A DNA stretch of 55,538 nucleotides from Defluviitaleaceae bacterium (GTDB lineage: Bacteria > Bacillota > Clostridia > Lachnospirales > WRAA01). Location of the stretch: the NCBI GenBank assembly GCA_009780015.1, contig WRAW01000006.1, positions 1-55,538 on the forward strand, written 5' to 3'. The notes beneath the pieces were generated by a model. The model did not search any database. It was given only the letters and a program-made list of their open reading frames with translations, and had not been told where the DNA came from. A program made the translations under genes and the position numbers. Position 1 is the stretch's first letter. Each line of letters opens with the position of its first letter. Below are positions 332 through 55,538 of the stretch, piece after piece.

Positions 332-1867
332 ATGAACGCCGTATTGATAGACGGAAAGAGCCTGAATCTTGAGGATGTCGTCAAGGTAGCCAGGCATGGA
401 TGCAGGGTGGAATTGACGGAGGGGGCAATGGCCTCGGTGAGGAAGTCCCGCGAATACGTTGACCGCCTTGTGCGTGAGGGCAGGGTGGTGTACGGCATTA
501 CCACAGGCTTTGGCGAGTTCAGCAAGGTGAGCATCGCTAACGAGCAGACGGAGCTGCTGCAGAAAAACTTGATTGTAAGCCACGCATGCGGTATCGGCAG
601 GCATCTGCCGGAAGACAGCGTGCGGGCGCTTATGCTGCTTAGGATAAACGCGCTGTCGCAGGGATTTTCGGGGATACGCCTGGAAACCGTGCAGGCGCTG
701 ATTGATATGCTAAATACCGGCGTCGTCCCGGCCGTACCGGAAAAGGGATCGCTTGGGGCGTCGGGGGATCTCGCGCCTTTGTCGCACATGGTTTTGCCGC
801 TGATGGGCCTGGGTGAAGCGTACATCGGAGGGGAATTGATGCCGGGGGCGAAGGCTCTTGAGCGCGCCGGGCTGACGCCCGTTGTCCTTACATCCAAGGA
901 AGGCTTGGCGCTTATCAACGGGACTCAGGTAATGACCGGGATAGGCGCGCTGACTGTGTACGACGCGCTGAACGTGCTGAAGCTTTTCGATATCGCGGCG
1001 GCGCTGGTGGCCGAAGCGCAAAACGGCGTTACCGACGCGTATATTTCCGACATACACGAGATCAGGCCGCATCAGGGTCAGCTTGACACGGCTTCCAATA
1101 TGCTCAGGCTGCTGGAGGGCAGCGAGCGAACTACGCGCTCCGGCCAAGTCCGCGTACAGGACGCTTACAGCCTCCGCTGCGTGCCTCAGATACACGGGGC
1201 CAGCAAGGACGCCGTGCGCTACGTACACGGCAAGGTCGCGGTCGAGATGAATTCTGTTACCGATAATCCAATAATACTAGCGGACAAGGACATGGCCATT
1301 TCAGGTGGTAATTTCCACGGACAGCCGGTAGCCCTAAGCTTTGACTTTTTAGGCATAGCTTTGGCAGAGCTCGCAAACGTATCCGAAAGACGGATCGAGC
1401 GGCTCGTAAACCCGGCACTCAGTGGGTTACCGGCTTTTTTGACCAGACAGGGCGGGCTTCACTCGGGCTTTATGATTGCCCAGTATTCCGCCGCCGCCCT
1501 TGTTTCCGAAAACAAGGTGCTGGCGCACCCCGCCAGCGTAGATTCCATCCCGTCCTCAGCCGGGCAAGAGGACCATGTCAGCATGGGAACCATCGCAGCC
1601 AGAAAGGCTCGGGAAATCTACTTCAACACCAGCCGCGTCCTTGCGATCGAGCTGGTTGCGGCTGCACAGGCCATCGATCTGAACGAAAAGTACCAGGGCA
1701 GGAAGCTTGGAAAGGGAACCCAGGCGGCGTATGATACGATCCGTTCCGTTACGGATACCGTCGTCAATGACAGGGAACTTTACCTGGACTTCGAGAAGGT
1801 CGCTGCGCTTGTCGACTCGAACAGGATTGTCGAGGCGGTAGAAGCAGTTGTGGGAGAGCTTGCATAG
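332..1867 (+). CDS. hutH: Histidine ammonia-lyase
   Basis: The enzyme deaminates L-histidine to trans-urocanate and ammonia, the first step of histidine breakdown in the cytoplasm. The 511-residue length is normal for the family. The Ala-Ser-Gly triad that cyclises to the MIO cofactor is visible at residues 143-145 inside GSLGASGDLAPLSH, and the active-site tyrosine is Y54 in the VYGITTGFG motif. The ATG has a GGGAGG ribosome site six bases upstream. A perfect promoter lies about 90 bp upstream. No hutU, hutI or hutG is nearby; the next gene is a transporter. The stop codon TAG overlaps the first bases of a palindromic element. Confidence 0.97.
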   Translation: MNAVLIDGKSLNLEDVVKVARHGCRVELTEGAMASVRKSREYVDRLVREGRVVYGITTGFGEFSKVSIANEQTELLQKNLIVSHACGIGRHLPEDSVRALMLLRINALSQGFSGIRLETVQALIDMLNTGVVPAVPEKGSLGASGDLAPLSHMVLPLMGLGEAYIGGELMPGAKALERAGLTPVVLTSKEGLALINGTQVMTGIGALTVYDALNVLKLFDIAAALVAEAQNGVTDAYISDIHEIRPHQGQLDTASNMLRLLEGSERTTRSGQVRVQDAYSLRCVPQIHGASKDAVRYVHGKVAVEMNSVTDNPIILADKDMAISGGNFHGQPVALSFDFLGIALAELANVSERRIERLVNPALSGLPAFLTRQGGLHSGFMIAQYSAAALVSENKVLAHPASVDSIPSSAGQEDHVSMGTIAARKAREIYFNTSRVLAIELVAAAQAIDLNEKYQGRKLGKGTQAAYDTIRSVTDTVVNDRELYLDFEKVAALVDSNRIVEAVEAVVGELA

Positions 1868-2040
1868 TGTTCCATCCGGCTTAAAACCGTAGTATCTTTG
1901 CGGTCAATTTTCTACTATGTGTCGTCAGCGGGCACGCGTCCACCCCACGAAGCCAAAGATGGGCTTTGCGGGGGTCGCTTCCTGGCCTGGCGAAAAATTT
2001 CCGCGTAAGTCTACTCTGCTTTTAAACCGGATGAAACACT
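1866..2040. repeat. Dispersed palindromic element, copy 2 (AGTGTT-ended subtype)
   Basis: The ends AGTGTTCCATCCGGCTTAAA and, in reverse complement, AGTGTTTCATCCGGTTTAAA form an inverted repeat. The interior has the family's CCCCACGAAGCC...GGGCTTTGCGGGG hairpin and a GGCGAAAAAT box. The element starts inside the hutH stop codon and ends a few bases before the ribosome site of the transporter gene, so it fills the intercistronic spacer. Confidence 0.85.
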
Positions 2041-5957: not shown

Positions 5958-5987
5958 GCGGATCACTCCTTATTGGGGTTAGGTTTT

Positions 5988-6240
5988 AGAACCTGCATTC
6001 AATGACGCTCAACGCCGTCTAGAAGGTCAATTTTCCGCCACAGTCCACCCCATAAAGCCAAAACCGGGCTTTATGGGGACCCCGGGTCGTCAGTGGCTCC
6101 TAGCGTACCACTGCGGGTACGCTCAGTCCACCCCACGAAGCCAAAACCGGGCTTCGCGGGGACCCCGGGCGTCGCCACTTCCTAGATTGGCGAAAAATCG
6201 CCGCTTCTAGCCGACATTTCGGTTATTGAATACAGGTTCT
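5988..6240. repeat. Dispersed palindromic element, copy 3 (complete)
   Basis: Begins AGAACCTGCATTCAATGACG and ends with the complement of AGAACCTGTATTCAATAACC. Complementarity continues inward through the CTAGAAG boxes for nearly 50 bp. The interior holds a CCCCATAAAGCC/GGGCTTTATGGGG hairpin, a GCGTACC/GGGTACGC hairpin, a CCCCACGAAGCC/GGGCTTCGCGGGG hairpin and a GGCGA/TCGCC hairpin. It spans exactly from the flavoprotein stop codon to just before the next gene's ribosome site. Confidence 0.9.
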
Positions 6241-6809
6241 TATGATGCGGGTCTTTCGCTTAGTTTCGCGGCAAGTTCTATGACTTCACGCCGGACGGCT
6301 TCGTCTTCGTAGACTGGAAGGGTGTCGGTTTTCCAGGCTATGACGGTTCCAAGCAATTCGGCGTTGTTGAGTTTTAGGAGCATTTTGGAGGAGGCCAGAG
6401 CCGCTTCGGGGCCGTACTTGCTGGGGTCGAAGCCGCCAAGGTTCAGAATTATTGCGCCGTGTTTGGGTTTTAGCGATACGCTTTCGCGGCGGATATTGCG
6501 CGCCGCGAAGATCAGTTGAAAGCGGCTGAGGATGTTGAGCATGGGCCCGGGGAGGGCGGCGAAGTATATGGGCGCGGATATGACAATATTGTCAAAGGTG
6601 TTCATAGCGTCGTAAACGATGTCCATGTCGTCGATGATACTGCATCCGAATGTATGTGTGCAGTACTTGCAGTCAACGCACGGCGAAAGGTTTGCGCTAA
6701 AAGAACTCAGCGTTGTGACATCGCCGGACATGTGCTGTTTGAACAGGTTTTCGAGAAAGGCGGTCTGACCCGTGGGGTTGGGCGCGCCGGAGATTAGAAG
6801 GGTTTTCAT
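6240..6809 (-). CDS. Flavodoxin-fold NAD(P)H/FMN reductase of the iron-sulfur flavoprotein type
   Basis: About 189 residues. The N-terminus, MKTLLISGAPNPTGQT, is the FMN phosphate loop of the NADPH-dependent FMN reductase family. A cysteine motif C-x2-C-x2-C-x5-C (around residues 45-56) precedes SIIDDMD, as in iron-sulfur flavoproteins and related COG0655 proteins, so a [4Fe-4S] cluster is possible. The role is probably electron transfer or redox and xenobiotic reduction. The ATG at 6809 has AAGGAG eight bases upstream; the longer frame to 6875 would run into the promoter. The stop codon's last base is the first base of a palindromic element. Confidence 0.8.
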   Translation of the reverse strand: MKTLLISGAPNPTGQTAFLENLFKQHMSGDVTTLSSFSANLSPCVDCKYCTHTFGCSIIDDMDIVYDAMNTFDNIVISAPIYFAALPGPMLNILSRFQLIFAARNIRRESVSLKPKHGAIILNLGGFDPSKYGPEAALASSKMLLKLNNAELLGTVIAWKTDTLPVYEDEAVRREVIELAAKLSERPAS

Positions 6810-11738: not shown

Positions 11739-11941
11739 AGAACCTGTATTCATAGGATGGGAACGGCGTCTTAGCGGTCGATTTTCCGCCACAGTCCGCC
11801 CCATAAAGCCAAAACCGGGCTTTATGGGGGCCCCCGGATCGTCGGTTCCATCTTGCGTACCCTCTGTACGCGGCGTCACCTCATAGATTGGCGAAAAATC
11901 GCCTTGCTAATACGCCATTCCCACCTATGAATACAGGTTTT
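11739..11941. repeat. Dispersed palindromic element, copy 4
   Basis: The left end AGAACCTGTATTCATAGG and the reverse complement of the right end (AAAACCTGTATTCATAGG) pair with each other, a terminal sequence not shared with most other copies. The interior has the CCCCATAAAGCC/GGGCTTTATGGGG hairpin, a GCGTACC/GTACGC hairpin and GGCGAAAAATCGCC. It lies 29 bp upstream of the protease start. Confidence 0.9.
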
Positions 11942-12011
11942 GAATATTGCCATTTCGTATAGTTTATATTCGGCGCACGAAATTTAGAACTGTTTTCTAT
12001 GTTTAAGCCTC

Positions 12012-12266
12012 AGAACCAGCGGTTAATAACACTCAACGCCATCTGGAAGGCCGAACTCCACCCCACGAAGCCAGAAGCAGGCTTCGTGGGGGCCCCGGTT
12101 TTCCACCACTCGTCGTCAGCGGATCCTTGCGTACCACTATGGGTACGCTCAGTCCACCCCACGAAGCCAAAACCGGGCTTCGCGGGGACCCTGGGCGTCG
12201 CCGCTTCCTAGATTGGCGAAAAATCGCCACTTCCAGCCAGCATTTCGGTTATTGACCGCTGGTTCT
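12012..12266. repeat. Dispersed palindromic element, copy 5 (overlaps pcp 3' end)
   Basis: The ends AGAACCAGCGGTTAATAAC and, in reverse complement, AGAACCAGCGGTCAATAACC pair. The interior carries two CCCCACGAAGCC-type hairpins and a GCGTACC/GGGTACGC hairpin. The right 59 bp are translated as the last codons of pcp. Only 70 bp separate it from copy 4; I see no gene between them. Confidence 0.9.
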
Positions 12267-12873
12267 CAGATATGCAAGCCAGTACGCAAGCCTGCAAGCC
12301 GTCGGTGATCTGCTGCATGGAAAGCGACGGCTTGTCCGGTTTGTCGAGGATTTGCTCAGTGGCATAGGGGACGTGTACGAAGCCGCCGCGGATTCCCTCA
12401 AATTCGGGTACGGTGGCCAGCATGTGCAGCAGGCCGTACATGACGTGATTGCATACATATGTGCCGGCGGTGTTGGATACGGAAGACGGTATTTTGACGG
12501 CGCGCACCGCGTCAACCATCGCCCTTATGGGAACTGTGGCGAAGTAGGCGTTTTGGCCGTCTTCAAAGATAGGAAGGTCTATGGGCTGGCTGCCGGAGTT
12601 GTCGGGAATTCGCGCGTCGTCGATGTTTATGGCTACGCGCTCGGGTGTGACGGCGAAGCGTCCTCCTGCTTGTCCGATACACAGCACCACTCCGGGGCTG
12701 TGCGCGCGGATCGCGTCCTCCAACACGCTGAGAGATTCGTAGAACACACAAGGCAGCTCCAGTTTGACGATATGACAGTCTCCGATGATATCGGGCAGAA
12801 GCCGTACGGCTTCATAGGACGGATTGACGCTTTCGCCGCCGAACGGCGCAAAGCCCGTAATCAATATGCGCAT
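12208..12873 (-). CDS. pcp: Pyroglutamyl-peptidase I
   Basis: A cytoplasmic cysteine peptidase that removes N-terminal pyroglutamate from peptides. About 221 residues with the start at MRILITGFAPFGG, the usual family N-terminus; the frame extends 29 codons further upstream but those codons are hydrophobic, unlike the family, and cross the -10 side of the rpoB promoter region. The catalytic Glu lies in TPERVAIN, the Cys in NTAGTYVCN and the His in FVHVPYATEQ. The last 20 residues or so, from SENQRSITEML, are encoded by a palindromic element and replace the native C-terminus. Confidence 0.93.
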   Translation of the reverse strand: MRILITGFAPFGGESVNPSYEAVRLLPDIIGDCHIVKLELPCVFYESLSVLEDAIRAHSPGVVLCIGQAGGRFAVTPERVAINIDDARIPDNSGSQPIDLPIFEDGQNAYFATVPIRAMVDAVRAVKIPSSVSNTAGTYVCNHVMYGLLHMLATVPEFEGIRGGFVHVPYATEQILDKPDKPSLSMQQITDGLQACVLACISENQRSITEMLAGSGDFSPI

Positions 12874-24334: not shown

Positions 24335-25001
24335 TTTTGTGGACTATCGCTTGGAGTATTCTAAACTTGAGATGATGAAGTACATCGGGCATATCGACCT
24401 GATGAAGCTGTTTCACAAGCTGTTCAGGATGTCGGGGCTGCCGATAGTTTTCTCTCAGGGCTTTAACCCGCATCAGATATTCACTATTGCTCACCCCTTG
24501 TCCCTTGGAATGGAGGGGCAGAGCGAGCTTGCCGATTTTCGATTGAGCGCCGAAGTGGACGCCGCTGAAATAGTGGACGCGCTAAATTCGTGTGCGCCGG
24601 TCGGCTTGTGTGTCAGCCGCGCGCGTACGCTTGTCAAGGGCGAAAAAAACTGCGCCGCGCTTGTGGCGGCGGCGGATTACAGGGTGTGCTGCGGAGCGCA
24701 CGCGGGCTTGTCCGTCGCTGTTCTCGCCATTTTGTCGCGCGACGAAATCGTGACCGTCAAGCGAACTAAGTCGGGCGCGTCTCAGTCGGACATACGCAAG
24801 GATATAATCGGTCTGACCGAACACGGGCCGGGCACGCTCGATATGCGTATTTCCGCGGGCAGCGCCGCGAATCTCAAGCCCCAGCTCGTCATGAGCGAAG
24901 TATTCCGCGAACTGGGCGCGCAGTACGACGAAAACACGCTGAATTACACGCGGATACAGCTTCTGCGCCGCCAAGGCGACGGCTTCGAGCGGCTGGATTA
25001 A
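24318..25001 (+). CDS. DUF2344 / TIGR03936 family protein, partner of the radical SAM protein
   Basis: About 228 residues. YSKLEMMKYIGHIDLMKLFHK and LPIVFSQGFNPHQ are hallmark motifs of the family, which is always found beside TIGR03960 radical SAM proteins and is fused to them in some species. The start is uncertain: GTG at 24318 is inside the GGGGGAGGTG ribosome-like sequence, and other in-frame candidates are GTG 24339 and TTG 24351. In every case it overlaps or abuts the radical SAM stop codon, so translation is probably coupled. The TAA stop's last base is the first base of a palindromic element. Confidence 0.88.
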   Translation: MCVTADFVDYRLEYSKLEMMKYIGHIDLMKLFHKLFRMSGLPIVFSQGFNPHQIFTIAHPLSLGMEGQSELADFRLSAEVDAAEIVDALNSCAPVGLCVSRARTLVKGEKNCAALVAAADYRVCCGAHAGLSVAVLAILSRDEIVTVKRTKSGASQSDIRKDIIGLTEHGPGTLDMRISAGSAANLKPQLVMSEVFRELGAQYDENTLNYTRIQLLRRQGDGFERLD

Positions 25002-25137
25002 GAACCAGCGGTCAATAACCGAAATGCTGGCTAGAAGTGGCGGAAAACCGGGGACTGTCCCATGAAGCCCGGTTTTGGCTTCGCAGGGTGGAGTTCGACC
25101 TTCTAGACGGCGTTGAGCGTTATTGATCGCTGGTTCT
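25001..25137. repeat. Dispersed palindromic element, copy 6 (short, complete)
   Basis: 137 bp. The ends AGAACCAGCGGTCAATAAC and, in reverse complement, AGAACCAGCGATCAATAAC match at 18 of 19 positions; CTAGAAG boxes pair further in, and a central GAAGCCCGGTTTTGGCTTC hairpin forms the tip. Its arms resemble those of copy 5 in reverse orientation. Confidence 0.9.
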
Positions 25138-25172
25138 TAGCTTTGTATATCAAATGAAACACGTCGAGCAAC

Positions 25173-42609: not shown

Positions 42610-42629
42610 GAATCTGCTCCGAGTCCATA

Positions 42630-42891
42630 AGAACCTGTTTACTATCTTTTCACCATTGACTTGGCGGCCAGACTCCACCCCACGAAGCCAAAACCTGGCT
42701 TCGTGGAGACTCTGGTTTTCCACCCTTTGTCGTCGTCAATTCCTTGCGTACCAACTCAGGTACGCGGCGTCATCTCCTCCGCCTACGCTGGCGCTTCGGA
42801 TGCTAAACGTGTACCACCGGCACACAGCATCCTAGAATGGCGAAAAACTGGACTCGCCAATCCAACGGCAAAAAGATAGTAAACAGGTTCT
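42630..42891. repeat. Dispersed palindromic element, copy 7
   Basis: The ends AGAACCTGTTTACTATCTTTT and their exact complement at the right (about 21 bp) form the most perfect terminal pair in the window, with a sequence unlike other copies. The interior has a CCCCACGAAGCC/GGCTTCGTGG hairpin, a GCGTACC/GGTACGC hairpin, a TACGCTGGCGCTTCGGATGC segment shared with copy 9 and a CGTGTACCACCGGCACACAG segment. Confidence 0.9.
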
Positions 42892-42929
42892 AACGACAAC
42901 GATAAGCATGAATTAGGGGAGGGGACTTG

Positions 42930-50145: not shown

Positions 50146-50225
50146 AGTGTTTCATTGGCCTGCAACCATCGAAGACTTGCTAGGCGGTTTTTCGCAGGAT
50201 AATGTTGCGGGCCGGATGGAACACT
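50146..50225. repeat. Dispersed palindromic element, copy 8 (minimal, AGTGTT-ended)
   Basis: AGTGTTTCATTGGCCTGCAA pairs with the complement of the right end, which in reverse complement reads AGTGTTCCATCCGGCCCGCAA. The 80-bp element has lost the CCCCACGAAGCC hairpin but keeps a GCGGTTTTTCGC tip. It follows the first giant surface gene by eight bp. A GGCCGG/CCGG-rich hairpin fills the rest up to 50280. Confidence 0.75.
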
Positions 50226-54895: not shown

Positions 54896-55336
54896 ATGAT
54901 AAAAAAATATGCCACGATCAACCGTGACGAGGCAATTGAGTTATTCATGGGGGTGTTCTCAGCCGAGCCGTTTTGTTATACATGGCTCAGGCGTGAGGCC
55001 GTCGAGCGTTATTTCACGGACTTGGCCAACACCCCCGCGGCGCTGTCATTTCTATACTACAATAACAAAGGCCTGTTGACAGGCCTTTGTTTTGGCGCTA
55101 TGAACGACTATTTTATCCACAAGCTGTATGATATCAAGGAGTTTGCCGTAAGAAAGGATGCGCAAGGCAAGGGCGAGGGCAGACGGATGCTAGAGGAAAT
55201 ATCAGGCTGCCTGAAAAGTGAAGGCGTAGCCGCGGTCACCCTTTCAACGCAGCGTGAGATCCCGGCATATGAATTCTATCTCAAGAACGGATTTGTAGCG
55301 TCGAAGTCGAGTGTGACTCTCAGTAAGAAGATTTAG
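54896..55336 (+). CDS. GNAT-family N-acetyltransferase
   Basis: 146 residues. The acetyl-CoA-binding loop is seen in EFAVRKDAQGKGEGRRML (pattern Q-x2-G-x-G/A), and the family C-terminal strand and helix in IPAYEFYLKNGFVASKS. The acceptor is unknown. It begins eight bp after the giant surface gene, with only a weak ribosome site, so translational coupling is likely. A perfect 12-bp inverted repeat lies within its coding region. The TAG stop overlaps the first two bases of a palindromic element. Confidence 0.85.
   Translation: MIKKYATINRDEAIELFMGVFSAEPFCYTWLRREAVERYFTDLANTPAALSFLYYNNKGLLTGLCFGAMNDYFIHKLYDIKEFAVRKDAQGKGEGRRMLEEISGCLKSEGVAAVTLSTQREIPAYEFYLKNGFVASKSSVTLSKKI
55064..55093 (+). terminator. 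Terminator-like hairpin inside the GNAT gene
   Basis: AACAAAGGCCTG (55064-55075) pairs perfectly with CAGGCCTTTGTT (55080-55091) around a TTGA loop, followed by two more T. It lies at codons 57-66 and could cause partial termination or slow translation. Confidence 0.5.
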
Positions 55337-55538
55337 AACCTGTGTTCATAGGATGGGAATGCCGTCTTGTCGGTCGAATTCCACCCCACGAAGCCAAAAT
55401 TGGGCTTCGTGGGGACGGTTTTCCGCCACAGTCCACCCCATAAAGCCAAAACCGGGCTTTATGGGGACCCCGGGTCGTCGGTTCCTCCGCCTACGCTGGC
55501 GCTTCGGATGCTAAACGTGTGCCACCGGCACACAGCAT
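55335..55538. repeat. Dispersed palindromic element, copy 9 (right side cut by window edge)
   Basis: Starts AGAACCTGTGTTCATAGG inside the GNAT stop codon. The interior shows a CCCCACGAAGCC/GGGCTTCGTGGGG hairpin, then CCCCATAAAGCC/GGGCTTTATGGGG, then the TACGCTGGCGCTTCGGATGC and CCACCGGCACACAGCAT segments shared with copy 7. Confidence 0.88.

Follow-up and report, generated by a model that had tools for sequence, protein, structure and literature searches.

The usual view of bacterial MITEs is that they are passive remnants in which nothing but the ends is conserved. The BOX repeat has been known for decades and is in use as a typing primer. It is a small, dispersed, non-autonomous and modular repeat with a stable RNA fold, found in Streptococcus pneumoniae and S. 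suis (Croucher et al. 2011, PMC3049150), and in S. suis different flanking modules are seen around the same boxB (PMC3049150). The BOXA1R primer has the sequence CTACGGCAAGGCGACGCTGACG (PMC7291552). Among other repeats of this general kind, some Correia/NEMIS and ERIC transcripts are processed by RNase III or RNase E (PMC10969869, PMC3049150).

Here we analyse a family of dispersed palindromic elements in a 55,538-nucleotide stretch of DNA (the window) that comprises one whole contig of the 2.77-Mb, 183-contig genome of a Defluviitaleaceae bacterium. A first-pass annotation had listed nine such stretches, and all nine contain what was described (Table 1). We consider that the copies belong to a non-autonomous, BOX-like mobile element with a conserved chassis, whose folded strand, probably as RNA, is under selection, a reading to which we give a probability of roughly two in three. 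The observations behind it are a common core, a constant length combined with differing ends, target site duplications (TSDs), a nested insertion, modules in fixed slots, covariation in the stems and a strand bias of mismatches.

Anatomy of the element

The element consists of a chassis of ~165 bp that carries between zero and four hairpin modules of ~45 bp each, such that element sizes cluster near 165, 208, 255, 300 and 348 bp. There are three module slots, each with its own hairpin version: CACG in slot A, ATAA in slot B and either CACA/GCAA or CACG/GCGA in slot C. Mixed hairpins are also found which look like products of recombination between slots. Copies are abundant: a pattern with GAACC-type ends (TWAGAACCNGYNNTC) has 210 matches in the genome against six for the reversed pattern (six expected), whilst the core pattern identifies 89 exact copies in the source genome and none for the control. 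Several other contigs of this genome start or stop inside such repeats.

Table 1 Copies of the element in the window and their component parts
Feature	Position	Strand	Remarks
Complete element	5986..6242	minus (folded strand)	two modules, slots B and C; TSD TTA at 5986-5988 and 6240-6242; ends GAACCTGYATTCAATRAC
Slot B module hairpin, ATAA version	6048..6078		
Slot C module hairpin, CACG/GCGA version	6131..6161		
Complete element	12010..12268	minus	modules in slots A and C; TSD TCA; core is covariance-model match 12096-12225, E 4.2e-9 (R1)
Element, single slot B module	11739..11941	minus	end class GAACCTGTATTCATAGG; mutated outermost right base (AAAACC)
Element	42628..42893	minus	TSD TAA; end class GAACCTGTTTACTATCTTTT, similar to IS5-type ends in L258 and L261
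Shortened copy, reverse orientation	24999..25139	plus	135 bp between flanking TAA and TTA; middle lost
Element, different end class AGTGTTYCATCCGG, same core	1866..2040	minus	TA flanks; model match 1905-1999
80-bp copy, AGTGTT end class	50146..50225		without core
Right half of element, cut by contig end	1..77	minus	
Left part of element, slot A and B modules, cut by contig end	55335..55538	minus	

The first-pass annotation proposed that the left end of each complete copy pairs with the right whilst the end sequence varies between copies. Both ends indeed match within the copy in six of the stretches (14-mers, no more than two mismatches), and the source genome alone has at least 12 distinct matched end sequences. 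It also took two paired versions of an inner hairpin as evidence of matched change. Both versions exist, but they are position-specific modules, mostly inherited paralogues, and hence represent few covariation events; the real covariation is in the outer arms and the core.

Some copies depart from the basic plan. The copies at 42630-42891 and 55335-55538 have in common a further insert (CTCCGCCTACGCTGGCGCTTCGGATGCTAAACGTGTRCCACCGGCACACAGCAT), a second module type. In the near-complete genome G706, two tandem core units lie ~110 bp apart, apparently without terminal repeats (L195, 1501-1698), from which it may be that the core exists as a unit of its own. Tiny palindromes (TWAGAACCTGTGTTCATAGGTTCT) in which both ends are joined with nothing between them (L237, 1660; L244, 1812; L254, 3072) are possibly deletion remnants. 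Finally, four elements in the window supply or abut the stop codon of a neighbouring ORF (at 1865-1867, 6240-6242, 24999-25001 and 55334-55336). Because stop codons can be read in the TSD and element end (TAA/TTA, TAG), a gene readily tolerates an insertion at its end.

A conserved fold

In the minus-strand orientation, the core runs in the order stem 1, C-WAGGA, stem 2, GACGMC, capping stem, WAGGA, stem 2', GACGMC-G and stem 1'. It forms one extended hairpin in which two 5x6 internal loops (5'-C-WAGGA / GACGMC-G-3'), the same motif in opposite orientations, enclose a short variable stem and the capping hairpin. Readings of these loops as CsrA-binding sites or kink-turns were dropped, as the GGA of the second loop is not conserved and the C-stem would set C opposite C.

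In a plain MAFFT alignment of 30 cores, compensatory changes are seen in 18 of 27 pairs, with a covariation score of 0.421 against 0.126 for shuffled alignments (none of 500 reaching the observed value) and at most 0.114 for slid controls. In a wider alignment, fitted to the model and so biased towards its structure, compensatory changes occur in 25/27 pairs, 90.5% of cells are paired and the score is 0.549 against 0.185 (0/500 shuffles). RNAalifold, applied to the whole element, predicts 46 pairs, 36 of them with compensatory change. As the copies are related, the cell counts in these covariation tables do not represent independent events. Selection on pairing, which the first-pass annotation had suggested, is thus supported by the covariation of the stems, and is in addition strand-specific, a property invisible to that annotation.

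Strand bias and the nature of the folded molecule

The strand on which the model was built folds better than its complement in all 41 elements examined from six genomes, and the same strand folds better in 37 of 40 cores from 16 further genomes (in 15 of the 16 on average). In Omnitrophica copies the two strands fold about equally well (mean difference -0.3 kcal/mol). Transition mismatches between the arms are strongly asymmetric: 111 are G.U-compatible on the model strand as against 16 on the other, the corresponding figures for the terminal repeats being 40 and 6 (p 3e-7). When mismatches are compared with the nearest relative that retains the pair, C>T (85) and A>G (58) account for G.U, whilst T>C (14) and G>A (14) account for A.C. 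A simple mutational bias of one strand is an unlikely cause of this double enrichment of G.U, since pure C-deamination would not raise A>G. Nor does a double-stranded binding site give any reason for the asymmetry, and the mismatches therefore point to selection on a folded single strand.

Might this strand be DNA rather than RNA, formed as an intermediate of transposition or replication? G.T pairs are tolerated in DNA hairpins too, DNA energies favour the same strand in 38 of 40 cases, and insertions show little preference for one orientation with respect to adjacent genes (34 both-sense versus 20 both-antisense), so that the folded strand cannot be the transcribed one in all copies. (This bias is also too weak to be used as proof of a role in mRNA, an argument that we rejected.) However, IS5 and IS630 transposition uses double-stranded ends and we know of no strand-specific intermediate for either family; moreover, the mean energy difference between the strands is larger with RNA parameters (-14.4) than with DNA parameters (-5.2). 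For these two reasons we favour RNA. There is, in addition, no obvious replichore pattern in the orientations of the copies listed for two complete Paenibacillus-like genomes, where copies are few and the origin was assumed to be at base 1. Taken together, these points make single-stranded DNA a rather unlikely form of the selected molecule.

Distribution: a constant core with changing ends

Within the same order, the core pattern recognises related copies in a further five genomes, with BLAST identifying others, and a pattern search extends the distribution to Peptococcaceae and Gracilibacteraceae MAGs and to Omnitrophica UBA6210. Of two covariance models, R1 was tied too closely to the capping stem to give BOX a score and R2 was built to generalise; with these models the element is found in 14 of the 268 Bacillota genera sampled, the genomes compared being largely MAGs and the model E-values rough. 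Among the genomes so identified are two complete ones of 6.5 Mb, in which the copies show an 80% match to a replicon of Paenibacillus cellulosilyticus. Across genomes the length of the chassis is mostly 159-166 bp despite completely different ends, the end classes including GAACCTGTRTTCA, GARCCTGTTTARTATC, GAAGCTGTRTTCA, GACCTGTCCGGAAA, TATAGTTGATTGAG, TATAGCCATTCAACTT, TATACTCCTTAAC, TTATACTCGTGTACGG, GTGTTYCATCCGG, GGGCGTGTCTGA, CTAGTGCCCTGTCAACC, CTAGTACTCTGTAAAC and AGGACCTG amongst others.

Pattern matches in Rhodococcus, Streptomyces and others were set aside as coincidental palindromes or as coding matches to the capping hairpin alone. Several Rhodococcus scaffolds (L098, L104, L105, L111, L154 and L156) have a different dispersed palindrome of their own, CGTCGTGCGCCTTTTGCGTACC...GGTACGCAAAAGGCGCACGACG.

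Mobility and the probable origin of the ends

Of 42 GAACC-class elements, 33 lie between identical 3-bp TNA repeats and, where both flanks read TWA, the two agree in 32 of 37 (p 3.7e-6). The AGTGTT end class has TA flanks. In one case (L092), a GAACC element is inserted into another chassis element with duplication of TAA (CCCACTAA|GAACC...GGTTC|TAACAGTT), and the other arm of the host element preserves the uninterrupted site, CCCACTAACAGTTA. This nested insertion with its intact sister arm demonstrates mobility and fixes the boundaries of the element.

The ends appear to have been taken from insertion sequences unrelated to one another: four end classes are similar to the termini of IS630- or IS5-family members present in the genomes studied. 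The source genome encodes an IS630 element of 105 + 181 amino acids (DDE_3), the ends of which (TATACTCATTCAACTTAAAAACAGTCCA) are identical at 24 of 28 positions to an element class of a sister genome (TATAGCCATTCAACTTGAAAACACTCCA). An IS5-type element in genome G039 has ends TAA|GAAACTGTTTAACATC, which match those of elements (TAA|GAACCTGTTTAATATC) at 21 of 26 positions; a broken or degraded IS5-type copy in the source genome (L261) has a similar end near its degraded gene. Also in the source genome, an IS5-type orfA starts 80 bp inside TTA|GGGCGTGTTTGAAAA, and GGGCGTGTTTGAAAA is the end of other chassis elements. In the source-genome stretches examined near unpaired ends, no autonomous insertion sequence with the dominant GAACCTGTRTTCA (GAACC) ends was found. 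Searches of the source genome gave no match to PF13586 and three to PF01609, all weak or broken, and blastn found no homologues of the window elements in plasmids. Elsewhere, an IS5-type element was seen inside an IS256-like transposase gene whose frame ends ...TTNAVEGFHRML (L256, G000:C149, 270-284).

The first-pass annotation saw no transposase, which is correct for the window, but end classes similar to those of the elements are present on IS630 and IS5 elements in the source genome or its same-order relatives. This makes the element MITE-like after all, with many end classes in place of one: it has terminal inverted repeats and a TSD, and its ends resemble those of insertion sequences in four classes, though not in the dominant one.

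Could the copies simply be ordinary MITEs, that is, several unrelated insertion sequences with internal deletions, palindromic in appearance only through their matching ends and with a core that has no function? The TSDs, the IS-like ends and the nested insertion are all MITE features, and matching ends within a copy are to be expected, since one transposase binds both. Deleted insertion sequences, however, keep their ends whilst the middle decays; here it is the middle that is kept, across Bacillota families and Omnitrophica, and the ends that differ. Neither strand-specific tolerance of G.U nor invariant internal loops would be expected of such remnants. Since elements whose ends are unrelated have the core in common, its derivation from any one insertion sequence by deletion seems less likely. 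The earlier view that this is not the simple decay of one insertion sequence is supported. We regard the ordinary MITE explanation as quite improbable.

Least probable of all is arm conversion, in which template switching during quasi-palindrome replication copies one arm onto the other and pairing is not selected: the nearly perfect terminal 18-20 bp and the many double changes of transversion type (AU to UA, CG to GC) accord with it, but conversion would erase asymmetries that are kept across genera (the 5x6 loops, GGTC versus AAAAATCC, AACG versus CATT) and would be indifferent to whether a mismatch is G.U or A.C.

A model for the spread of the element

How might a BOX-like element selected as a folded strand spread and persist? 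Copies would be moved by transposases able to recognise their ends, encoded by IS630, IS5 and comparable elements. Both ends would change together, the terminal stem drifting whilst being kept paired and occasionally meeting a new transposase. The selected molecule would be an RNA made when transcription runs across the element or, less probably, the same strand as single-stranded DNA. As to what is selected, the RNA might limit the harm done to the transcripts in which it lands, or might serve the element's own spread; this is the weakest step of the model. With ends that vary and a strand-specific fold that is conserved, a mobile non-coding element seems here to be selected as a folded molecule.

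Relation to BOX and other known systems

The first-pass annotation could not match the element to any named family. None of the Rfam covariance models matches at the gathering threshold or at E up to 1. The annotation had not, however, listed the pneumococcal BOX repeat, which is close in both architecture and motif. Overall, the earlier interpretation is partly supported.

Correia/NEMIS and ERIC, like the present elements, are dispersed palindromic repeats; they are named here as functional analogues only. MITEs of IS5 and IS630 (such as RUP) likewise have IS-like inverted ends and TNA or TA duplications, are intergenic and have no coding capacity. The present elements differ from them in having one core for many end classes, conserved internal loops and strand-specific covariation.

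The comparison with BOX rests on a single real copy (L218), from an S. pseudopneumoniae satellite phage. In our elements, the counterpart of the BOXA1R primer is the stretch made up of the capping stem, second WAGGA, stem 2' and GACG. In this one copy, C-TAGGA-AGCT / AGCT-GACGTG-G forms the same 5x6 loop as that defined here, and the copy also shares CAAGG on the other strand side, an inserted boxB and (T)ATACTC-like ends. Insertion of ~45-bp modules in variable number is alike by analogy, the sequence and slots of the modules differing from those of boxB. BOX differs further in having been reported from streptococci (PMC3049150) and in its capping stem and U-tract side, and the copy shows no clear strand preference in fold energy (-51.5 versus -49.4). 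Model R2 places it in the expected register with 8.1 bits (E 0.26), and its score for the three-part motif is reached by 2 of 1500 dinucleotide shuffles, but 11 of 165 unrelated genomic chunks, many being GC-rich, reach it as well. One viral contig (L235) has a match to BOXA1R that was discarded, since it is GC-rich and looks like coding sequence rather than an element.

The architecture of the element is thus BOX-like, whilst membership of BOX is not proven. The element appears to be a widespread and previously unrecognised relative of the pneumococcal BOX repeats. More tentatively, and with the odds somewhat against it, there may be an unrecognised superfamily of mobile structured RNAs in Bacillota and Omnitrophica that includes BOX, in which the folded RNA would be the unit of selection and the ends would be interchangeable, taken from whichever transposases are available. 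BOX would then fall inside a wider family, and the 5x6 loop motif offers a concrete candidate for testing for a binding partner.
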